IMG/VR virus record: IMGVR_UViG_3300010413_000085 | Span: 1 to 44,194 of that record | Length of the DNA stretch: 44,194 nt | Strand: one strand, 5' to 3' | From: a virus | Shown: in pieces, positions 1,659-44,194 of the stretch | How positions within the stretch are numbered: position 1 is the first letter of the stretch | Layout of the letters: the number at the start of each line of letters is the position of its first letter | The notes under the pieces: model-generated | What the model was told of the DNA's origin: nothing | What the model saw: only the letters and a program-made list of their open reading frames with translations | Database searches by the model: none | Position numbers and translations under genes: made by a program

Positions 1659-1709
1659 ATGCCTTGCGGCAAGGGAAAGAAGGGCAAGAAGAAGGGCGGC
1701 GGAAGGTAA
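1659..1709 (+). CDS. 16-aa Lys/Gly-rich peptide
   Basis: The ORF encodes MPCGKGKKGKKKGGGR followed by TAA. A GAGGAG motif lies 5-6 bases before the ATG. The next gene starts at GTG on the very next base, so the pair is probably coupled. The peptide is almost entirely Lys and Gly with one Cys, so it could bind nucleic acid or be only a leader that couples translation. No family is assigned. Confidence 0.5.
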   Translation: MPCGKGKKGKKKGGGR

Positions 1710-2472: not shown

Positions 2473-2655
2473 ATGAGAATCCTTCTCATCGCAGCCCTCT
2501 TCGCCACAACCCTCCTCCTCCAACCCCAACCCAGCCGCTGCCAGACGGATATCTGCCCCCGCATCCCCTGCGTCAACTCCAACGTCTGCAACCTCGGCTG
2601 CGCCTGCATGAAACCCCCGACCCAAGGGCTCGGAGTCTGCGTGAGCGTGAGATGA
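2473..2655 (+). CDS. Secreted inhibitor-cystine-knot (knottin)-like peptide
   Basis: This 60-residue precursor starts at ATG 2473 behind a strong AGGAGAT site. Residues 1-16 (MRILLIAALFATTLLL) are a Sec signal peptide core. The mature part has six cysteines at 28, 33, 39, 43, 45 and 56, spaced C-x4-C-x5-C-x3-C-x1-C-x10-C, which fits the inhibitor cystine knot consensus. A seventh Cys at 23 lies near the probable cleavage region. The start CPRIP recalls the CPRI inhibitory loop of squash trypsin inhibitors, and C-x5-C-x3-C-x-C matches their spacing. What I infer is a phage-encoded, exported, disulfide-rich peptide acting in the periplasm or outside the cell, perhaps a protease inhibitor or a surface-active moron. 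It could also be another small disulfide-rich secreted protein. Its TGA overlaps the next ATG. Confidence 0.8.
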   Translation: MRILLIAALFATTLLLQPQPSRCQTDICPRIPCVNSNVCNLGCACMKPPTQGLGVCVSVR

Positions 2656-2982: not shown

Positions 2983-3639
2983 TCAGTCACGGTCACAGTT
3001 GACGGTCTCGCCTTCCAGGGGCTCGGCAGCCCCCGAATCATGACGCAAGGCGTCGGCCGAGGCAGGAATTCGCGCGGGGGCGTTCTGTTGAGGCGTGCCA
3101 GCGATGCACAGTCCCTCCCCGTTCACCGCTCTATCCGCATACCCTGATTCCGGCTCCGCCGGGCTCAGGCTCACGTCGAGCCGCATTCCCGCACCCTTGA
3201 GGGATCCTGCGAGCTGCTCAAGAAAGGCTAGGGCGCCGCCGGTATTCGCTTGCTGGCGCTCGAAGTCCCGCACCTTATCGCTGGAGATGCCTGCGGTAAC
3301 GGCTAGATCTCGGAGGGACTCTTCCGAGAGCTTGCCTTCTCTTGCCCGTTCCAGCATTTCCTCAGTAGTCGCGATAGCGATTGCTCGGTGATTTGTAATC
3401 ACCCTATCGGTTCCATGTAGGACGTTGGTTAGTCCATGCCGGTGAGCTGCATCTCCTAGGGTGGTATGTTGGATACCGATTGCGCGAGACGCTTCTCTGT
3501 AGGACCAACCGCACAGCATGAGGTACAATCCATGGCGGCTTTTGCAGTCGCTCATACGCTTGCATAGGTCGTCCCAAACCTTCCGGTTTTCCTGCGGCAG
3601 TTCCGGCAGCTGAGCCAGTGCCTTAGCTTGTTCGTCCAT
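2983..3639 (-). CDS. Helix-turn-helix DNA-binding protein (candidate small terminase or regulator)
   Basis: This 218-residue protein has two HTH-like segments. The first is at residues about 43-70 (GWSYREASRAIGIQHTTLGD). The second is at about 103-125 (KLSEESLRDLAVTAGISSDK), whose LRDLAVTAGISSDKV pattern is common in phage small terminase and related DNA-binding proteins. The last ~60 residues are low in structure. It lies on the late strand upstream of terL, where a small terminase normally sits, but separated from it by the inserted plus-strand segment. It could instead be the regulator that binds the nearby GTTCC-N4-GGAAC sites. Start ATG 3639 has only a weak upstream purine site. Confidence 0.8.
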   Translation of the reverse strand: MDEQAKALAQLPELPQENRKVWDDLCKRMSDCKSRHGLYLMLCGWSYREASRAIGIQHTTLGDAAHRHGLTNVLHGTDRVITNHRAIAIATTEEMLERAREGKLSEESLRDLAVTAGISSDKVRDFERQQANTGGALAFLEQLAGSLKGAGMRLDVSLSPAEPESGYADRAVNGEGLCIAGTPQQNAPARIPASADALRHDSGAAEPLEGETVNCDRD

Positions 3640-4538: not shown

Positions 4539-4864
4539 GCGAAACGAAACAGCAGGGACTCGACAGGGCACTAGGCGAAGACTTGATCGCTCTGCTCTCG
4601 TTGCACGTCAAGCGCAACGGGCGCGTGGATACGAGATGGGGAGATAAAACTCCGCTGGGGCTCGGCGCAACAGTTCGCCGGGTCGTGCGGAACAACGAAG
4701 GCCTCGCCGACCCGACCGGGCTGGCGGAGTTGGTGGAGGCGGCGGAGGCTGGCGAACGAAAGTTGAGAGTATGCCTTGCCATACGGGGTACGCAACCCGA
4801 ATTGGACCCGACCGTGCAAGCACTCCGCTCCGCGCTCGCCCGGGTGAAGGGGGAGGGGAAATGA
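4535..4864 (+). CDS. Hypothetical 109-aa protein
   Basis: The start is ATG 4535, overlapping the previous stop (ATGA) and preceded by the same GAGAGGGAAGC leader as its neighbours. A longer frame open from 4376 lies within the previous gene and is not used. The protein looks helical, with a central basic part (HVKRNGRVDTRWGDKTPLGL) and an acidic middle. It is unrecognised. Confidence 0.75.
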   Translation: MSETKQQGLDRALGEDLIALLSLHVKRNGRVDTRWGDKTPLGLGATVRRVVRNNEGLADPTGLAELVEAAEAGERKLRVCLAIRGTQPELDPTVQALRSALARVKGEGK

Positions 4865-5043
4865 GGGAAAACAAATACGAGTATCTCAAGGTCGTGCAAG
4901 GGTATTACGGCTGCGGCTGGGAAGACGTGACCGCTGAAACAGACCCGAGGGAAGCACGCGCACGCTTGCGGGAATACCGCGATAATGAACCGGAATACCC
5001 CCATCGGCTGATTTCCCGCAGGGTGAAGCGCACCGAGGGCTAG
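4861..5043 (+). CDS. Hypothetical 60-aa protein
   Basis: ATG 4861 overlaps the previous TGA. The protein has a beta-like start (YEYLKVVQGYYGCGWEDVTA) and then an Arg/Glu-rich helix (REARARLREYRDN), the layout of many small phage proteins that handle a surface-displayed beta hairpin. It is not assigned to a family. A strong hairpin follows its stop. Confidence 0.75.
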   Translation: MRENKYEYLKVVQGYYGCGWEDVTAETDPREARARLREYRDNEPEYPHRLISRRVKRTEG

Positions 5044-5052
5044 TCCGAGCCT

Positions 5053-5079
5053 ACTCCCCGTGGTGTGAGCACGGGGAGT
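5053..5079 (+). ncRNA. Intergenic hairpin with GTGTGAG loop, copy 1
   Basis: A perfect 10-bp stem ACTCCCCGTG/CACGGGGAGT (5053-5062 with 5070-5079) closes the 7-base loop GTGTGAG. A second 6-bp hairpin (GTCGGC/GCCGAC, 5083-5100) follows. There is no U-tract, so it is not a classic terminator. A protein-binding or transcript-protecting element is possible. Confidence 0.55.
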
Positions 5080-5111
5080 GCAGTCGGCGCTAGTGCCGAC
5101 GAGAGGGAAGC

Positions 5112-5750
5112 ATGAAACTTTCACATCGACTACTCAAAACCGTGATACGGAACAAGCTGGAAACTGGCGACTGCGAGCTTGAGTGGGCGCCTGGATATGC
5201 CGAACCAGGGTACGACGAACCTGAGTCGGGTATCCTGTTTGCAAACTGGAATCCGCAATCGTTCGGTGACTTCAATACCGGGAAGGGTCGCGTTGAATCA
5301 TTCTGCTCGCGCCTCGGAGCCCTGATCGAAAAGTCCGACGCTGGATACGCGCTTGAGTGGTCCGACGAATGGACCACTTGCTGTGACTGTGGCAAGGCTG
5401 TCCGCGTATCGCCCGACTCATACTCCTGGACTCCTAGCTATATGCTCGTGAATGAGTGTGAACCCGTGTGCAATGATTGCTTGGACCCCGGTACCGTCGA
5501 AGACGAGATCAAGAACAATCCGGATCGGTGCGACGTGTGTGGCATAAATTGGGAAGCACGCGGATGGGTCAAGTTCAACGGTGATTTTGAAACGGGATTC
5601 CACCCCGGACAGGATGACGACCCACGCGAGGTATTTAAGACGATCCGCAACAAACATATCGGAGTGGATGTGCTGTTCCAGCTCTCTGGAGTAGGGCAAT
5701 TCGACGCAACATGGGTGGCATTTTACAAAGACTTTGACGACGAGCAGTAG
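5112..5750 (+). CDS. Hypothetical 212-aa zinc-binding protein
   Basis: The GAGAGGGAAGC leader touches the ATG. Residues about 90-140 hold paired cysteines: TCCDCGKAV, then CNDC, then CDVCG, which look like one or two zinc-ribbon knuckles. The N-terminal half is acidic and aromatic (APGYAEPGYDEPESGILFAN), and the C-terminal part looks beta-rich. No catalytic motif is seen. The zinc knuckles suggest a role in binding DNA or a partner protein. Confidence 0.75.
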   Translation: MKLSHRLLKTVIRNKLETGDCELEWAPGYAEPGYDEPESGILFANWNPQSFGDFNTGKGRVESFCSRLGALIEKSDAGYALEWSDEWTTCCDCGKAVRVSPDSYSWTPSYMLVNECEPVCNDCLDPGTVEDEIKNNPDRCDVCGINWEARGWVKFNGDFETGFHPGQDDDPREVFKTIRNKHIGVDVLFQLSGVGQFDATWVAFYKDFDDEQ

Positions 5751-5765
5751 CCTCCACCTCGGCCG

Positions 5766-5792
5766 ATCGGCGCGTGTGTGAGCCGCGCCGAT
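5766..5792 (+). ncRNA. Intergenic hairpin with GTGTGAG loop, copy 2
   Basis: A 9-bp stem ATCGGCGCG/CGCGCCGAT (5766-5774 with 5784-5792) closes the loop TGTGTGAGC, which contains the same GTGTGAG as the hairpin at 5053-5079. The stem sequences differ between the two copies while pairing and loop are kept. It lies 15 bases after the stop of the 212-aa gene. Confidence 0.55.
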
Positions 5793-5826
5793 TAGCCGCG
5801 ATGGAACGCGGGAGAGGGAAGGAACC

Positions 5827-6156
5827 ATGCGAGTAACAATCAACGACGATAAGACACGCTGCACGATTGAGTCAGAGCCCGGTGACCCTGCCTTCCGAGA
5901 TGGCGGGTGGGGAGACGGTGAATCACGGCTCCTCTATCACGTCAAGCTTGCTCTTCGCGAGCAAGGCTATGACATGGTGAAAAAGCGTATGTGGAAAGAC
6001 GGCCATATGGTAGACGAGCGCCAGCAGTATCTTAGGACGCGAAAAGGAAAACCGATCTTGGCAATCTGGAATGATCGGTGGGTGATCGAAGGGGCCGACG
6101 ACATTCTGAGACGCGATGGGCACGTGTCCCTAACGATGGCCGATCTGAGTACCTAG
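5827..6156 (+). CDS. Hypothetical 109-aa protein
   Basis: GAGAGGGAAGGAACC precedes the ATG. The protein has an N-terminal beta part (MRVTINDDKTRCTIESEPG) and a middle helix (LLYHVKLALREQGYDMVKKR), followed by a basic beta strand and the segment LAIWNDRWVIEGADD. This pattern is seen in small phage proteins of unknown function. Nothing indicates catalysis. Confidence 0.75.
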   Translation: MRVTINDDKTRCTIESEPGDPAFRDGGWGDGESRLLYHVKLALREQGYDMVKKRMWKDGHMVDERQQYLRTRKGKPILAIWNDRWVIEGADDILRRDGHVSLTMADLST

Positions 6157-6179
6157 CGTCCCGCCCGCGCCTCACCCCC

Positions 6180-6209
6180 GCCCCCCGCTGGCATCCGCTG
6201 GCGGGGGGC
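6180..6209 (+). ncRNA. GC-rich intergenic hairpin
   Basis: A perfect 9-bp stem GCCCCCCGC/GCGGGGGGC (6180-6188 with 6201-6209) with a 12-base loop follows the 109-aa gene. The loop differs from the two GTGTGAG hairpins, and no U-tract follows. Position after a stop codon is shared by all three hairpins of this cluster. Confidence 0.5.
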
Positions 6210-6226
6210 ACTAGCATCGGGAGGAA

Positions 6227-6346
6227 ATGACATCGGCGATCGGTAGGGCGCTCAGGATCTGGATTTGCCCGGCATGCCGCGCGCAGAATGACGGCCGGCG
6301 GAAGCGGTGCAGGCTCTGCGGGGAGCTGCGGCCCGATCGGGGCTAG
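6227..6346 (+). CDS. 39-aa RanBP2-type zinc-finger microprotein
   Basis: ATG 6227 is preceded by GGGAGGAA. The whole protein is one zinc finger: W-x-C-x2-C-x3-N-x6-C-x2-C (Trp at residue 12, cysteines at 14, 17, 28 and 31), flanked by basic residues. That is the RanBP2-type (zinc-ribbon-like) consensus, whose eukaryotic members bind ubiquitin or single-stranded RNA. In a phage it probably binds nucleic acid or a host protein. It is the last gene of this plus-strand cluster and faces the rusA gene. Confidence 0.7.
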   Translation: MTSAIGRALRIWICPACRAQNDGRRKRCRLCGELRPDRG

Positions 6347-6355
6347 CCTGCCCCG

Positions 6356-6422
6356 GTCGCATTACAGGTCGAGGATCGAAACCGCTTTCCGACTGCGCAA
6401 GGGTCCCCCTGTCGCATTACAG
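6356..6422. repeat. 12-bp direct repeat GTCGCATTACAG
   Basis: Exact copies lie at 6356-6367 and 6411-6422, 55 bp apart, between the convergent zinc-finger and RusA genes. The second copy covers the last codons of the resolvase. It may mark a past duplication or insertion, or be a protein site. Confidence 0.5.
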
Positions 6423-6824
6423 CTCGCTATCCGTGCAGTCGATCGAGTGCGGGGGCTCGGCCTCGCGGACGTGGACGGAGACGGAGCCCTTCCCGCGCGG
6501 GGCCTTCTCCCACCGGTACCGGGGCTGCCCGATGCAGGACATCCGGTCGCTCTGGATGATCCCCAGCGTTTCGAGCGCATCTAGAATAGGCTTGAATGAG
6601 GTTACCAGGTTGTCCCAATCTGGCTCTCTCGCGCTGCATCTTACAAGCTCCAATGAGGCTAACCTAAGAGGAGCCTCTGGGTATAGCTTCCGTATCGCCA
6701 AAGAGACAGCCTTCCTCCATCGTCTATTCTCCGCGTGGATCGTTCTCCAATGACGCCTTGCGTTAAGCCCCATACTAGGCAATCCCGGCAGCGTGAAATG
6801 CAGCTCATAGGGCTCGTCAGGCAT
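6417..6824 (-). CDS. rusA: RusA-like Holliday junction resolvase
   Basis: This protein cuts four-way DNA junctions, here probably to resolve branched replication or recombination intermediates before packaging. The 135-residue product has the RusA layout: an N-terminal FTLPGLPSMGLNARRHWR strand-loop, then PDWDNLVTSFKPILDALETL with the DxDN acidic pair, and a following SDRM acidic residue. It ends with the typical beta strands (GSVSVHVREA). The start is ATG 6824, overlapping the previous TGA (TGATG) with GGGAG upstream; a GTG at 6836 is also open. It is the last gene of the minus-strand replication module. Confidence 0.88.
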   Translation of the reverse strand: MPDEPYELHFTLPGLPSMGLNARRHWRTIHAENRRWRKAVSLAIRKLYPEAPLRLASLELVRCSAREPDWDNLVTSFKPILDALETLGIIQSDRMSCIGQPRYRWEKAPRGKGSVSVHVREAEPPHSIDCTDSEL

Positions 6825-7006
6825 CACGGCTCCCACTTAAAGCGAATCTCGCCACGCGGCTCTGCCTCAAGTGCCCATGCAAGGAACTCGACACGCTCGG
6901 AGCGAGACATTCGCTTCCACGCCTGCCGCGCCTGCTCCGCTCCCGACCGGAGCCCCCAAAGCCTTCGCTCTTCCTCCACAGTCGCACTGAAGTCTACTTC
7001 GTCCAC
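6824..7006 (-). CDS. Hypothetical 60-aa protein
   Basis: The start is GTG 7006 because AAAGGAGA lies just upstream; a longer frame open to 7150 would overlap the previous gene. The protein is a Glu/Arg-rich helix pair (VEEERRLWGLRSGAEQARQA), then ERVEFLAWALEAEPRGEIRF. It overlaps both neighbours by a few bases, so it is probably co-translated with rusA. The function is unknown. Confidence 0.65.
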   Translation of the reverse strand: MDEVDFSATVEEERRLWGLRSGAEQARQAWKRMSRSERVEFLAWALEAEPRGEIRFKWEP

Positions 7007-7479
7007 TGCTGTCTCCTTTCTAGAGGGGTGGAATCCACCCGATCTAGGACGGAATCGCCAATGAGGGCAGGAAAAGGCCCGCCCCCTTGGCCGGATACCT
7101 CTTCTGGATTTTCTCCCTGCCACGGGCCATTTCTGGGCGTCTGGTGGCATCCAGAGGACCCCTGCTCCTCCCGATACCGCTCCAGCCTGGACTTGGCCGT
7201 CAGGATCCTCGCCCGGAGCGCCCGGCGCGTCTTCTCAGGGTCGAATCCCAGACCCGCCGAGAGCCAGTGAAAATGAGTTTCAGGATCCTCGAAGAAGCGG
7301 ACGGCCTCAGCGATGCTCTTCGCCGCGGTCTCCCGCCTGGAGGCCGCTTCCATCTCGGCCATCAGCGTGGGATATTGCACCCGGCGCTTGGGGATCCGGC
7401 GCTCCAGGTCCGCAATCGCATCGATGAGGACATGGGCCGCGACCCGGGCAGATTCGGAAAGCGTGAGGGGGTCGCTCAC
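6994..7479 (-). CDS. Hypothetical 161-aa protein of the replication module
   Basis: The start GTG 7479 overlaps the previous TGA. The N-terminal two thirds are helical and charged (DAIADLERRIPKRRVQYPTL; TRRALRARILTAKSRLERYR). The C-terminal third is Gly/Pro/Gln-rich and looks flexible. It lies between a loader-like protein and the 60-aa gene, so a replication or recombination role is plausible. No catalytic motif is seen. Confidence 0.7.
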   Translation of the reverse strand: MSDPLTLSESARVAAHVLIDAIADLERRIPKRRVQYPTLMAEMEAASRRETAAKSIAEAVRFFEDPETHFHWLSAGLGFDPEKTRRALRARILTAKSRLERYREEQGSSGCHQTPRNGPWQGENPEEVSGQGGGPFPALIGDSVLDRVDSTPLERRQQWTK

Positions 7480-7958
7480 AGAATTGCCTCTCCGTCGATC
7501 AGCCTTCGAAACCCTCCCGCTGCCTTGCGCCGGTTGACCCTCTCGCTCTTCTCCAGGAGCCCACGGATGATGAGATCATCCCCCGGCTGCGGACCTCGAT
7601 GGTCAAACCACGTCCGGCAATCGCCCTCGTGCCCGCGCGGCTTGCAGCAGATCAGGTTGCCGAAGGCTGTCCGGTGCAGCCTCTTCCGGCACTCGACGTA
7701 GCGGGGTTTCTCGTCATGCTCGTGGGAGAAATCCATCCGGCGGGCTCCTGCCTCAGCGACCCGCCGCCGGATCTCGGCCACCGTGGGCTTGCCCCGCTGC
7801 CCGCATTCGATGCAGCCTGCTACGGCCGCCCGGAGGGTATCGGTCGGGATGTCCTCCAGGTGCCGCAGGTAGCCCTTGATCTGTTTCTCACCAGGATTCT
7901 GCACGAAGAGAGCCAGCATCTCGTCGATGATTGCCATGCGAGGGTCAAGGCTTGCCAT
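7476..7958 (-). CDS. Helicase-loader-like replication protein
   Basis: Residues 1-70 (AIIDEMLALF, YLRHLEDIPTDTLRAAV, KPTVAEIRRRVAEAG) resemble the N-terminal helical domain of phage helicase-loader and loader-inhibitor proteins, where a short helix bundle contacts the replicative helicase. A second part has Cys/His residues (CRKRLHRTAFGNLICCKPRG, EGDCRTWFDH) that may bind zinc. No ATPase motif is present, so it is not a DnaC-type AAA protein. It follows the initiator gene with a 14-base overlap, the classic O-P order of lambdoid phages. The start ATG 7958 has GGAGG 8 bases upstream. Confidence 0.6.
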   Translation of the reverse strand: MASLDPRMAIIDEMLALFVQNPGEKQIKGYLRHLEDIPTDTLRAAVAGCIECGQRGKPTVAEIRRRVAEAGARRMDFSHEHDEKPRYVECRKRLHRTAFGNLICCKPRGHEGDCRTWFDHRGPQPGDDLIIRGLLEKSERVNRRKAAGGFRRLIDGEAIL

Positions 7959-8640
7959 TCTCGGCCTCCATCTCCCGCGAGATCCGCAGGAGCATCTGCT
8001 CGTGAGTCTCTGGCCGGGTCTCCAACGCCCAGCCGCGGCGCATCGCGCCCTGAATCGTCCGCCCCCAGTCCGCCTTGAGCTTGCCCCCGCTCACCGCCCA
8101 GTCTCCGACCACCTCGATCGCATGAGAGAGTTGAGGGGAAGAGAACCCGTGGGTGCTCGCCCACGCTTCCAGGGTCTCTCGAAGCTCGGAGGGGAACGGC
8201 TCGGGGAAGGGGGACTGGCAGGGCTTCTTGATCCTCTTCGCCTTTCCGTTTCCTGACTGGATCGGAGGGGGAGCGGCGATAGCCGCGGACTCTTTCTTCT
8301 CTTCTTCTGTCTCTTGTATCTGTCTCTGTCTCTCAGAAGGTGTCCGATGCCTGTCCGATGCCTGTCCGGTTGATGTCCGGTCCCTGTCCATACGGCAATC
8401 TTTTTCCTTTAGTTTCAGGGCATCTTGGGTGTCCATGTACTGTCTGATGCGTGTCCGACACCAGTTCCGTGAGTGTCCAAATAATCGGGAATAGGAGTTG
8501 ATGGATTGGAGCCCCGAGGGAGTCGAGCAGTCGAAGTTGATCTGGAGCAACGCCTCAATCTCCGTGTACTTCCTTTTTCTCGGCCGGTACTGTAGGAACA
8601 GGGCAGTGGAGATGCGGCGATGACCGTCTACGGGCGTCAA
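7945..8640 (-). CDS. O-like replication initiator
   Basis: The protein should bind the origin and recruit the loader and helicase. Of 231 residues, the first ~70 form a winged-helix-like domain (TEIEALLQINFD, then SYSRLFGHSRNWCRTRIRQY). Residues about 80-140 are a charged, low-complexity hinge. The C-terminal domain has the HGFSSPQLSHAIEVVGDWAV and KADWGRTIQGAMRRGWA pattern found in phage initiators of the O/DnaD-like type. The hinge is encoded by DNA with 11-bp iterons, just as lambda O carries its origin in the hinge. It overlaps the loader-like gene. It is inferred from architecture and context rather than a single diagnostic motif. Confidence 0.72.
   Translation of the reverse strand: MTPVDGHRRISTALFLQYRPRKRKYTEIEALLQINFDCSTPSGLQSINSYSRLFGHSRNWCRTRIRQYMDTQDALKLKEKDCRMDRDRTSTGQASDRHRTPSERQRQIQETEEEKKESAAIAAPPPIQSGNGKAKRIKKPCQSPFPEPFPSELRETLEAWASTHGFSSPQLSHAIEVVGDWAVSGGKLKADWGRTIQGAMRRGWALETRPETHEQMLLRISREMEAENGKP
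8341..8484. other. Candidate replication origin: two arrays of 11-bp iterons
   Basis: Units beginning TGTCCG or TGTCCA start at 8341, 8352, 8363, 8374 and 8385, exactly 11 bp apart. A second array starts at 8430, 8441, 8452, 8463 (degenerate, AGTTCC) and 8474, with the same period. The consensus of the best units is TGTCCGATGCC. Between the arrays lies a T-rich stretch (8398-8417) that could be the unwinding element. The period is not a multiple of three, so protein repetition does not explain it. It sits in the hinge-coding part of the initiator gene. Confidence 0.75.
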
Positions 8641-8643
8641 CCA

Positions 8644-8823
8644 CTAGCCCCCCGTCACCTTCTTCTCCCGCCCCTTCCGGTCCTTCGTGACCCACATCTT
8701 TCCGCTGTTCCGGCAGTCAGGGCAGTAGTGCGCCTGGGAGCAGTGGCCCCGGCACCGCGGGCAGGGGACGGAATAGGGTACAGCGGGGTTGGGCGGGGCG
8801 AGGGGCTTGGTGAGGTCGGTCAC
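8644..8823 (-). CDS. 59-aa zinc-ribbon protein
   Basis: The GTG start at 8823 overlaps the stop of the 20-aa ORF. Four cysteines in CPRCRGHC and CPDCRNSG form a DnaJ-like double CxxC zinc knuckle, followed by a basic tail (VTKDRKGREKKVTGG). Such microproteins bind nucleic acid or stabilise partner proteins. It lies directly before the initiator gene. Confidence 0.65.
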   Translation of the reverse strand: MTDLTKPLAPPNPAVPYSVPCPRCRGHCSQAHYCPDCRNSGKMWVTKDRKGREKKVTGG

Positions 8824-8882
8824 TCCAGCGCCCCCACAGCCCGCAGGGCGGCAACCTCAGGCCCCGGCTCGTAGTCAGGCAT
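8820..8882 (-). CDS. Possible 20-aa ORF
   Basis: ATG 8882 overlaps the end of the 66-aa gene, and its TGA overlaps the GTG of the zinc-ribbon gene. The product MPDYEPGPEVAALRAVGALE has no motif. Its exact overlaps with both neighbours suggest translational relay, but a peptide this short may be only a coupling device. Confidence 0.35.
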   Translation of the reverse strand: MPDYEPGPEVAALRAVGALE

Positions 8883-9075
8883 CGGGCTTTCCCCCCAGAT
8901 CCCGAGCGAGCTTGATCGCGTCCCGAAGCGGCAGGATCGTCTCCCCGCTCCCGTCGCGGTTCCATACCGCCCAGCAATTCTCGATGATGTGGTAGATCTC
9001 GTCCCCGTGCTCTTCCAGCCACTCCAGATCCCGGGCCTTCCGGTAGTCGTCCATCGTCGGGCGGATGCGGGTCAC
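8875..9075 (-). CDS. Hypothetical 66-aa protein
   Basis: The GTG start at 9075 overlaps the stop of the small membrane protein gene. A frame open to 9114 is less likely because it would overlap that gene fully. The protein is acidic and helical (DDYRKARDLEWLEEHGDEIY) with a second helix (PLRDAIKLARDLGGK). No family is assigned. Confidence 0.65.
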   Translation of the reverse strand: MTRIRPTMDDYRKARDLEWLEEHGDEIYHIIENCWAVWNRDGSGETILPLRDAIKLARDLGGKPDA

Positions 9076-10161: not shown

Positions 10162-11045
10162 CGAAGAGTGATCTGGTGCTCCCTGCCTCTTCCGATCTGG
10201 AAGCCCTATCGGACCCCGGTAGCCGCATCATCGTCGCCTGCGAGCGAGCGAAAACGTGGCTCGCGCAAGCACTCGAAGGGGATCAGATCGAGCAGATCGT
10301 GGAACTCAAGTCCCAGGCCGAGGCCATGCGGATCTACGCCATGCAGAAGCAGCTCGGAAAGGACGCCCAGCTCTCGGCTGCTGAGATCGTGCGCCGTGCC
10401 GAGCGTTGCATCGGTCTGGCGATTCGGAAGGGGCAGAAGGAAGGGCGGATCGCGAAGCCAGGCCAAGGCAGCAGTGCAAGACCGCCGCGGGCAAAACGAG
10501 ATCGTCGCGACAAGAACATCTCGTTACCAAGTCAATATCTTGAGCACGGTCAGCAGATGACTGACACCTACGCCATGACCGACGGCGTGTCGGACGAGCA
10601 GTTCGAGAAGGCGATCGGCGAGGCGAAGACCGAGCGGAACCTCTCCCGGGCCAACGTCGTCCGTAAGGTGAAGGGCAACGGCAAAGCCGACCGCTGGGCG
10701 CCACTCGTGCGGCTCGCCAGCTCTGGAGCGACCTCCCACCAGATCGCCGCGAAGCTCGGTGTCAGTCCGAGCACGGTCAGGAAGAAGGCCCGGGAACTCA
10801 AAATCGAGATCCGCGCCGATCTGGTGGTCGGGAAAGCCACTCTGCCGAATCAAGCGCGGATCCTCACGAAGTTCGCTCTCTCGCTTGGAAGCCTCATCCC
10901 CACTTGCGACATGATCGACCCCAGCCGGATCGACAAGAAGGCGATCAAAGAATCGCTGTCGATCCTTGACGAGAGCATCCCCGCACTGACGAAGCTGCGG
11001 AGGAAGCTCAGGAGGGAAATAGAGAATGGCAGCAGGACAAAGTGA
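10158..11045 (+). CDS. HTH protein of the ParB-like gene pair, 295 aa
   Basis: The GTG start at 10158 overlaps the previous TGA. The N-terminal half is a long helical region (LKSQAEAMRIYAMQKQLGKD, SAAEIVRRAERCIGLAIRKG), then a basic linker. Residues about 195-225 hold an HTH (SSGATSHQIAAKLGVSPSTV) followed by RKKARELKIEI. The C-terminal helices end in a basic tail. It precedes and overlaps the ParB-like gene by 20 bases, so the two products may act as a DNA-binding pair, for example in regulation or host-DNA processing. The exact role is unassigned. Confidence 0.75.
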   Translation: MTKSDLVLPASSDLEALSDPGSRIIVACERAKTWLAQALEGDQIEQIVELKSQAEAMRIYAMQKQLGKDAQLSAAEIVRRAERCIGLAIRKGQKEGRIAKPGQGSSARPPRAKRDRRDKNISLPSQYLEHGQQMTDTYAMTDGVSDEQFEKAIGEAKTERNLSRANVVRKVKGNGKADRWAPLVRLASSGATSHQIAAKLGVSPSTVRKKARELKIEIRADLVVGKATLPNQARILTKFALSLGSLIPTCDMIDPSRIDKKAIKESLSILDESIPALTKLRRKLRREIENGSRTK

Positions 11046-41566: not shown

Positions 41567-43290
41567 TGCGGTCTCCCTCCCTGCGAGAAGATCGCAAGCG
41601 CAGCCGGGTCGATCTTCATCCCTTCCGGGCTCTCCTGCATCGGGTTCGCAATCTGCTGCTCGGCCTGCTGCGCCTTCTGCTGGCTCAGGTACTCCCTCGG
41701 ATTCTTGCCGCGCGCCACGAAGTAGTCCTCGTAGGGCTTCGCGACGTTGCAGATCTGCATCCCGAGCTGCGTGGAAACCACCTGGATGTCGGCCAGCGCC
41801 TCGGCGGATTTCTGCTGGTGGCTGTCCGGACGGGTCGAGCCGACCACGATCTTGTAGTCGAGATCCTCGGAGAGATCTTCCGGACTGACGCGAACGAAGT
41901 CCTCCGCACCCGGTCCCACCACCGGGATCAGCTCCTCCTCCATCGTCACCGCACGCCGGCCGTGCATGTAGTTCCGGACGCTGGAGGTGATGAACTTCTC
42001 AAACGCCTGCTGGTTCCGAAGCGTATGGATGTCGGATCCCACCTGGACCTGCGCGGCCTCCTGGGCCGTCTCGACATTGATCCGCTGTGCCCGGTCCATC
42101 TGGGACTGCCCGATGGTCTCCCGGAAGTCGCGCTCCAGCAGCTCGTTGTAGGGGATCAACTCCTGCGGGAAGCCTCCGGCGCGAATCTCCTGGATCACCT
42201 CGGAGGCCACGCCGTTCACCTCCAGGATCTCCAGCACCTCGGAGTCCTCCAGCTTGTCCAGCTCGTCCTCATCCATCCCGCCCTTCTGAGCGGCAATGAT
42301 CCGGCGCGTGTTCCGGGCGATGATCGACATGATGGTACGGAGACGATTCAGTTCCAGCTGGATCGGAATGGCCTCCTCCATCACCGGAACCGGGAAGGGA
42401 GAGTCCATCTGCTCGTTCACGGCGAGGATATCCACCGGAAGATGCTCCCAGGGAAGCGGCCAGTCAGCCTGCTCCCGGACGGGGCCGGAGACCTCATCAT
42501 CGAGCGTCATCTGGAACCACGTCCGTTCCCAGATCTCATAGACGGAGTAGATCTCGATCAGGTCCCCCCAGTCCTCGTTCCGCTCATCGAGCAGCCCCGG
42601 ATCCCGCATGTGCTTGTACGCCTGCGAGACGTTCGGAGCGAGCCCCTTCTTCACGACCATCCCGGGCGTATTCTCGATCTGCTCCTCGGTCATCAGGTTC
42701 CGGAAGGCTACCCAGCGAAGCTCTCCATCGTTGTGCCAGGAGCTTGCCAGAGGATCGAGCAGGCAGTCCCACATCGGGATCCGCTTGATCCACGGACGAT
42801 TCCGCTTGGCAGGACGATACAGCTCCAGGAGCTTCCCGTTCTTTCCGATGTAGGCGTCATCCGGCGTGAACCCATGCCGGCAGATCCCGATCGGAGCGAA
42901 GAAGTGGTCTCGAAGAGAAGCGTTCCACTGACGCATGAAGTTCAGCTCTTCGATGTCGTAGTTCACGAGCTTTGCGGCCTTCGGAGCCGACATCACCGCT
43001 CGATCGCTGCGCGGGAAGACCTGCACCTCCGGGTCTCGTGCGGCCACCTGAGCCTGGAGTGTATTCGCTCCGGAAAAGACCTTGTTGATCGTGACCAACT
43101 CGCCAGTGCTGAGACCGAGAAGGGGCTTCACCAGCCCCCAGTGGTTCCCCCGGTACATCTCCAGAAGGATCCGCATCGCGGACATCTGGCTGTTCCCGAT
43201 GATCCCCTTCTCGGTCCAGACATCCCGGGCGTGCTTCAGGCGCACGCGCCAGCGATCGAAATCCTTCTGGGAGAGCTTGGAATCAGGCAC
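41563..43290 (-). CDS. Portal protein, 575 aa
   Basis: The portal forms the dodecameric ring for DNA entry and exit and binds terminase. The GTG start at 43290 overlaps the terL stop. The N-terminal helix region (LSQKDFDRWRVRLKHARDVW), a beta core with YDIEELNFMRQWNASLRDHF, and the middle segment MEEAIPIQLELNRLRTIMSI (the long central helix of portals) are all as expected. The C-terminus is Gln/Ala-rich (YLSQQKAQQAEQQIANP). Size and order after terL support it strongly. Confidence 0.88.
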   Translation of the reverse strand: MPDSKLSQKDFDRWRVRLKHARDVWTEKGIIGNSQMSAMRILLEMYRGNHWGLVKPLLGLSTGELVTINKVFSGANTLQAQVAARDPEVQVFPRSDRAVMSAPKAAKLVNYDIEELNFMRQWNASLRDHFFAPIGICRHGFTPDDAYIGKNGKLLELYRPAKRNRPWIKRIPMWDCLLDPLASSWHNDGELRWVAFRNLMTEEQIENTPGMVVKKGLAPNVSQAYKHMRDPGLLDERNEDWGDLIEIYSVYEIWERTWFQMTLDDEVSGPVREQADWPLPWEHLPVDILAVNEQMDSPFPVPVMEEAIPIQLELNRLRTIMSIIARNTRRIIAAQKGGMDEDELDKLEDSEVLEILEVNGVASEVIQEIRAGGFPQELIPYNELLERDFRETIGQSQMDRAQRINVETAQEAAQVQVGSDIHTLRNQQAFEKFITSSVRNYMHGRRAVTMEEELIPVVGPGAEDFVRVSPEDLSEDLDYKIVVGSTRPDSHQQKSAEALADIQVVSTQLGMQICNVAKPYEDYFVARGKNPREYLSQQKAQQAEQQIANPMQESPEGMKIDPAALAIFSQGGRPQ

Positions 43291-44194
43291 GGTAGAGCCC
43301 CGACTGGAGCCTACGTGCGCTGAAGGCCCCGAACTTGTCTTGTGTTCCGAAGCGGCGACGCTTCACCTTGCGTAGATGCTGCTTGATCCAGTCCTCGTCC
43401 GTCCCTTCCCGGCTCGGAAGTGGACGGCTCATCACGAAGTAGCGGGCAGAGTCCGCGGCATGATCGGCCCCGATGAAGGAGCCGTTCGCGAACTCGTTCT
43501 TGCATCCCTCGCGGAAGCGAAGGGTCTTCCACTCAGCGATCGTATTCTTGCAGCTCGCGGTGACGTATAGGCCCGGGAAGCCCTCCACCGGGCCTTCCGT
43601 CATCAGATCACGAAGCCGGGTGAAGCCTGCGGAGCGATCCCGCATCGCGTTCTTGTTCCTGTCCCAGACGTTGAGACCCGCATCCCGCATGATCTGGGCT
43701 ACCTGTGGCTTGCTGGGATCTCCAACGATGTAGGACGTGTTCCCGTATCTCTCCATCCTCTCTCGGATCCCGTCCACGAGCTTCGGAGAGGTGAGCAGGC
43801 GCTCGTAGATCTCATCGAAGAGGACGAGAATCCCGTTCGACAGGATCGCCCAGAAGTGCGCCACGGCCGAATCCGAGTAGCCGTAGTCAATCGAGACCGC
43901 CTTCGGAGCAAACTCGACCTCATCGGGAGCCTTCGCGAGAACATGTCGCTCCTTGTTGAACGGAAGAACCATTCCGGTGTAATAGACCCAGAGACCGAGG
44001 AATTGCTCGGCGAAGTAGGGATCATCCCGGTAGGTGGCATGGGGTCCGACCGTCTCCTTCACGCGGATGTCGGCCAGCCTCTTCTCCTGGTTGAACCGCT
44101 CGATCGGATAGTGCGGGTTCGCCTCCTTCGGATAGTGGAAATGCTCGATCCCGAGGGAGGGATCCTTCTCGCCGCGCTCCTTCAGCTCCCGGAT
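43283..44194 (-). CDS. terL: Terminase large subunit, C-terminal part (continues from 762-1)
   Basis: The last 255 residues of TerL are encoded at 44050-43283, and 44194-44051 repeats the 5' copy. The nuclease half has the RNase H-like acidic residues: SIDYGYSD (Asp309), VLFDEIY, IVGDPSKP (Asp365) and GADHAADSARYF (Asp451/454). The C-terminal tail is basic (LRKVKRRRFGTQDK). It overlaps the portal gene by 8 bases. The nuclease motif is intact although the Walker motifs in the first half are unusual. Confidence 0.93.
   Translation of the reverse strand: MRELKERGEKDPSLGIEHFHYPKEANPHYPIERFNQEKRLADIRVKETVGPHATYRDDPYFAEQFLGLWVYYTGMVLPFNKERHVLAKAPDEVEFAPKAVSIDYGYSDSAVAHFWAILSNGILVLFDEIYERLLTSPKLVDGIRERMERYGNTSYIVGDPSKPQVAQIMRDAGLNVWDRNKNAMRDRSAGFTRLRDLMTEGPVEGFPGLYVTASCKNTIAEWKTLRFREGCKNEFANGSFIGADHAADSARYFVMSRPLPSREGTDEDWIKQHLRKVKRRRFGTQDKFGAFSARRLQSGLYRA
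44051..44194. repeat. Direct terminal repeat, copy 2
   Basis: Identical to bases 1-144. With this copy removed the circle is 44,050 bp, and the terL reading frame is unbroken through the join. Confidence 0.97.

Follow-up and report, generated by a model that had tools for sequence, protein, structure and literature searches.

Knottins, which serve as drug scaffolds, have almost all been described in plants, animals or fungi. The squash inhibitors (PF00299; CMTI-I, EETI-II and MCoTI-II) have a first loop of six residues with Lys/Arg-Ile and a fifth loop of five, and the TIL domain (PF01826), with its ten cysteines, differs in disulfide order. In MCh-1 (PDB 2m2q), which like MCoCC-1 (PDB 2knp) comes from Momordica seeds, the connectivity of the inhibitor cystine knot (ICK) has been mapped, and the peptide is not a trypsin inhibitor (PMC3792974). 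Eukaryote-like disulfide-rich peptides are also present in bacteria, including myxobacteria, in the form of defensin-like peptides such as actinomycesin (PMC8819291). Here we analyse a gene for a 60-residue, knottin-like and probably exported peptide in a phage genome, IMG/VR record IMGVR_UViG_3300010413_000085, all 44,194 nucleotides of which are called the window in what follows. No phage-encoded knottin family was found in the open-access literature; the phage articles that seemed to mention 'knottin' held only the word 'knotting'.

Comparison with described peptides

The phage peptide has its six-cysteine core in common with MCoCC-1, in which the spacing C-x5-C-x3-C-x1-C-x10-C is identical. 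MCoCC-1 and MCh-1 are both among the matches to a profile of the 12 family members described below, the sequence match being non-significant; they differ in being plant seed peptides and in lacking an extra N-terminal cysteine. With the squash inhibitors the family shares the x5-x3-x1 spacing; in both, loop 2 has D/N-S, A/V/I stands between the fourth and fifth cysteines, and a G comes before the last one. Squash inhibitors are also among the profile and Foldseek matches. Unlike them, however, the phage family has four residues in loop 1 and about ten in loop 5, no conserved reactive site, and one cysteine more. The TIL domain has the segment GC-x-C ... G-x-CV in common with the family, but ten cysteines as against seven in the phage peptide, and the best-scoring member (L354) reaches 18.1 bits against a PF01826 cut-off of 24.5, with no match at all in six of the seven phage members. 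The bacterial defensins, for which all reports concern actinobacteria and myxobacteria, are not phage-encoded and have another cysteine pattern. Membership in the squash inhibitor, TIL or spanin families was rejected; by prediction, the peptide works like a knottin.

The peptide gene and its layout

The gene encodes MRILLIAALFATTLLLQPQPSRCQTDICPRIPCVNSNVCNLGCACMKPPTQGLGVCVSVR, ended by a stop codon, and has the following parts:

2473-2655, (+): gene for a cysteine-rich, knottin-like peptide of 60 residues, predicted to be exported (translation; leave-one-out profile; syntenic relative in the phage G011)
2460-2465, (+): ribosome-binding site AAGGAG, 7 nt 5' of the ATG (direct reading; gene-calling script)
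2473-2538, (+): signal-peptide-like N-terminus, residues 1-22, MRILLIAALFATTLLLQPQPSR (alignments; putative cleavage site)
2539-2541, (+): C23, the extra (seventh) cysteine, conserved in 7 of 7 phage members and 3 of 5 members from bacterial genomes
2554-2640, (+): core of six cysteines, C28-C56, C-x4-C-x5-C-x3-C-x1-C-x10-C, in which G42 precedes C43 and G54-x-C56 forms the end (columns that do not vary in the alignments of 7 and 12 members; AlphaFold2 strands)

An earlier note, made from the letters alone, had described a 60-residue open reading frame (ORF) with a strong ribosome-binding site and a hydrophobic core, and the translation and the position of AAGGAG agree with it. The same note counted six mature cysteines. 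The spacing that it gave holds from C28 onward; the count does not, for seven cysteines follow the hydrophobic core (C23, C28, C33, C39, C43, C45 and C56), and the conserved C23 had been missed.

The gene is real. Among all ORFs of the window (six frames, every start codon), no other of 40-80 amino acids combines a hydrophobic N-terminus with six or more cysteines after it, and 40 second-order Markov resamplings of the window yielded no such ORF. A leave-one-out profile, built from the other 11 members of the family, selected it from 970 frames with an E-value of 1.3e-9, the runner-up having 0.96. When the mature residues were shuffled, 3.3% of the orders still agreed with the loose ICK consensus, which by itself is therefore weak evidence; x5-x3-x1 arose in 0.015% of them. 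The strong evidence is the exact cysteine spacing and the existence of relatives. A longer in-frame ORF (1819-2655) was rejected as a GC-rich artefact, as the frame of the syntenic gene in G011 opens only about 30 codons before its ATG.

The peptide is probably exported, to judge by its N-terminus. All seven phage members are hydrophobic there, and the relatives have the leader junction A|x-C that is typical of signal peptidase I, with no lipobox. C23, which corresponds to a cysteine in 10 of the 12 members, probably lies within the mature peptide.

Relatives in phages

Relatives were sought in 2.9 million IMG/VR contigs with degenerate DNA patterns of the cysteine spacing, the matches being filtered for an open frame, a start codon and a hydrophobic leader. 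At least six records of uncultured phages proved to carry one (L034, L169, L186, L354, L358 and L363), which answers the earlier proposal to look for the ORF in related phages, and an alignment-based scan again yielded L034, L169 and L186. Most pattern matches were discarded as cysteine-rich, low-complexity frames lacking a signal or a start, and no look-alikes passed the ORF and signal filters. With those from bacterial genomes the family has at least 12 members, a lower bound made up of at least seven in phage records, the window included, and five in bacterial genome assemblies.

The phage relatives have in common the leader, the six core cysteines, the G before the fourth of them and a terminal G-x-C. 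The extra cysteine stands two residues before the first core cysteine in the relatives and four before it in the window peptide. Some of the scan patterns required neither the leader nor the final G and last cysteine, yet all of these are kept. Columns outside the patterns agree far beyond shuffles (z = 13), and jackknife E-values (Z=1000) run from 1e-13 to 0.003 across all 12 members.

The phage G011, whose record holds L354, is distantly related to the window phage: the large terminase subunit (TerL) is 34% identical, the portal 30%, the major head protein 33%, a 246-residue late gene 33% and a 60-residue early gene 51%. Its peptide, 37% identical, lies in the same place as in the window, beyond the terminase start and on the opposite strand, behind an AGGAGA site of its own. 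None of the remaining phage records matches the window terminase, though several of them are fragments; in these records the peptide is found in compact gene strings, for example adjoining a RecT-like gene in L034.

Standard searches found no relatives. Single-sequence tblastn with four members against 50,697 phage genomes gave none, its matches to a tail appendage and to cyanophages being due to chance (E 6 to 10); nor did exact peptide words against IMG/VR, or searches by way of the neighbouring portal and HNH genes. Separately, some viral contigs encode large proteins with repeated C-x5-C-x2-GC-x-C-x4-C units, near the family's core pattern (L026 at 6121, (+); L069 at 1955, (+); L351, (-)), and it is possible that the single-domain peptides stem from such proteins.

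Relatives in bacterial genomes

A profile built from the seven phage peptides found three members in 284 genomes of the phylum of L199, which we call Myxococcota-like as L199 is a Kofleriaceae metagenome-assembled genome (MAG), and one in 247 genomes of the phylum of L233, an Acidobacteriia MAG, where a second was found adjoining it by inspection. The five lie in L388-L391, two of them in L391. A loss of the cysteine spacing among relatives would have told against the earlier note; in these profile-found members the ICK loop consensus (x4-x5-x3-x1-x10) that it had read in the window peptide is largely kept. Loop 2 always has five residues and loop 4 always one, and loop 3 has three except in one member with two and one with four. 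L390 has the longer C-x4-C start of the window peptide (ARCQGSDC vs SRCQTDIC). In both L391 peptides the core of six cysteines is intact and the extra one is absent, and one of the two peptides has a membrane anchor that looks uncleaved. The members in L388-L390 are on draft contigs, and their assignment to a host is uncertain.

When 84,980 species genomes of bacteria and archaea were scanned by pattern, none of the 63 matching stretches was a member, but the pattern required C-x2-C-P and would miss the window peptide itself; since the profile later found bacterial members, the empty scan is not readable as absence. Profile searches of sampled genomes of three other phyla (one with the first profile) found no member, which is weak evidence.

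In L391 the two six-cysteine peptides flank a thioredoxin/AhpC-TSA-like gene and lie beside a MacB/FtsX permease gene (7417-8977 and 4972-7413, both (-)). The locus resembles a bacterial operon by which knottin-like peptides would be made and exported.

The fold

AlphaFold2 was run with the seven phage sequences. The models of the window peptide and of L354 have pLDDT values of 81.7 and 79.5, with short strands at core positions that are typical of knottins, in which a small antiparallel beta sheet is expected at cysteines II, IV-V and VI. A Foldseek search of the PDB with the L354 model returned mostly ICK peptides (EETI-II, CPTI-II, MCoCC-1, Evasin-3, PcTx1 and several spider toxins), none with E below 0.5; with the window model the list was mixed, led by an ICK toxin and about half ICK, and again without a significant match, which is no surprise at a length of 40 residues. 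Among PDB sequences, the profile of 12 members had 18 matches (E 0.2-8), almost all of them squash-type or other ICK peptides. As these several methods agree, a knottin-like core is likely, and the earlier description of a knottin-like, disulfide-rich phage peptide is supported.

A number of points weigh against this. The best Foldseek match of the L354 model (E 0.57) is a transglutaminase and not a knottin, and the PDB matches are individually non-significant, the best profile E-value being 0.22. A simple knot of three disulfides would leave one of the seven cysteines unpaired. L354 also matches the TIL domain weakly (E 0.0029, below the cut-off), and the disulfide order of that domain differs. 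Finally, AlphaFold can confuse granulin and ICK disulfide orders in such peptides (PMC11035057).

These points give some room to an exported disulfide-rich miniprotein of another fold, such as a granulin-, TIL- or EGF-like half-domain in which the extra cysteine would be part of the fold. Seven conserved cysteines, the TIL match of L354, some EGF-like or Dickkopf-like Foldseek matches and the unreliable disulfide topology of AlphaFold for such peptides (PMC11035057) all speak for it. We nevertheless hold it unlikely: the two L391 relatives keep the six-cysteine core without the extra cysteine, and the profile and fold searches favour ICK peptides.

Function

The explanation that we favour, by a modest preference, is an exported, disulfide-knotted scaffold that binds a target at the host cell envelope. 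The signal peptide would send the peptide through the Sec pathway, and oxidation outside the cytoplasm would tie its cysteines into an ICK-like core (C28-C43, C33-C45 and C39-C56, if the knottin order holds). The one conserved extra cysteine near the N-terminus would be left over and could link two copies; its conservation suggests an intermolecular disulfide. During infection the peptide would bind and block a protein in or just outside the host envelope, such as a receptor or a factor in the periplasm, and the outcome would be that competing phages are excluded or the surface is modified.

A conserved core with a variable loop 1 and a variable long last loop is what binding scaffolds have, so that the peptide would most likely bind and block an envelope protein. 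The same core and loops, with the leader and a net charge of -3 to +3 across the family, fit a secreted scaffold for binding better than they fit an enzyme or a cationic antimicrobial peptide of the generic kind. Taken singly, envelope binding is a tentative assignment, and exclusion of superinfecting phages an improbable one. The earlier note had guessed at an altered envelope or at phage exclusion, and no result contradicts either guess. Against the explanation stand the window peptide's own cleavage site (QPSR|C), which is poor where those of the relatives are good, and the neighbouring genes, which name no target and vary from phage to phage.

The family occurs in unrelated phages and in at least two bacterial phyla, and one copy has stayed at its locus while terminase identity fell to 34%. 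This points to selection, in viruses of prokaryotes, for an exported scaffold with disulfides. Knottin-like peptides thus seem not to be confined to eukaryotes. A broader proposal, on which we would stake little, is that of a true knottin family native to phages and some bacteria, whose members form covalent dimers outside the cell through the seventh cysteine, serve phages as envelope binders with variable loops (to shut out rival phages, for example) and mark an origin or a parallel invention of the ICK outside eukaryotes. The 12 sequences are a concrete set with which disulfide order, dimerisation and effects on infection can be tested.

It is rather doubtful that the peptide acts outward, as an antibacterial or similar agent that harms competitors or predators of the host and was acquired from bacteria making peptides of this kind. 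The bacterial homologues beside a thioredoxin-like gene and a MacB/FtsX permease in L391 would fit such a role, as would the defensin-like peptides of actinobacteria and myxobacteria (PMC8819291), but the family, with the charges given above, is not generally cationic, and no immunity gene was recognised.

Inhibition of a protease, which the earlier note had suggested, finds no support. The window peptide does contain the letters C-P-R-I, which would be the reactive loop (P1 Arg) of a squash-type secreted inhibitor blocking a host or environmental serine protease, and its x5-x3-x1 spacing and core do resemble those of squash inhibitors. A profile comparison gave E 0.00036 (probability only 37%, over 18 columns of loops 2-4), and one bacterial relative has a weak match to PF00299 (E 0.025; 15.0 bits against a cut-off of 22). 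As a guide to function, however, the squash analogy that the note had drawn is not supported. Loop 1 has four residues and not six, and in the phage members it reads PRIP, PSFT, PPTR, PTFR, GNAY, FTGD and LATP, with PRIP unique to the window peptide and no conserved P1 Arg/Lys-Ile. The note had called for a profile search against knottin families; PF00299 did not match the window peptide, not even with the threshold at E 10. We consider this reading very doubtful.

Still harder to credit is a lysis accessory of the outer-spanin (Rz1) type, that is, a short exported, proline-containing peptide with cysteines. Its size, a KPP segment and the position of L186, 1.8-2.6 kb from what by sequence alone are lysis-region-like peptidase and membrane protein genes, could be read that way. 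But C23 is preceded by R (by D/E/K/Q/R/V in relatives), so that PSR-C makes no lipobox; the core is conserved, globular and cysteine-rich; the neighbours are HNH and helix-turn-helix (HTH)-like genes, with no adjoining inner-spanin partner recognised; and other relatives lie in early-gene regions, as L034 does beside RecT. The lipoprotein or spanin reading was rejected on the lipobox and the neighbours.

That the ORF is spurious, an accident of GC-rich DNA, has next to no chance: it is just 60 codons long, its codon score is about zero per codon (uninformative for so odd a composition) and Pfam, PHROGs and NCBIfam hold no family containing it, but the reading is refuted by relatives that in unrelated phages have a start, a signal peptide and the full cysteine pattern, are syntenic in G011, and in L034, L358 and L363 sit among tightly packed genes.

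Gene neighbourhood

The phage genome is complete and circularly closed, with the same 144 bases at both ends of the record (1-144 and 44051-44194). Among its genes are those for TerL, the portal, the major head protein and RusA-like, ParB-like and Gam-like proteins. About 1.7 kb past the start codon of the terminase gene, and on the other strand, lies the start of the peptide gene; a scan for promoters and terminators found none. Nearby genes are:

43283-44194 and across the record ends to about 762, (-): large terminase gene (phrog_2, E 1.4e-10; circular gene call)
1710-2351, (+): HNH endonuclease gene, upstream of the peptide gene on the same strand (phrog_144, E 1.7e-15; PF01844 above cut-off)
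2983-3639, (-): gene resembling that of a helix-turn-helix regulator, convergent with the peptide gene (weak match, E 0.0022, to phrog_638, a transcriptional regulator)

The 60-residue protein conserved at 51% is encoded at 4861-5043 (+) in the window and at 10341-10526 (-) in L377, on strands that are opposite relative to the late genes. Directly before the HNH gene, at 1662-1709 (+), there is a tiny, highly basic ORF, MPCGKGKKGKKKGGGR, with a good ribosome-binding site.
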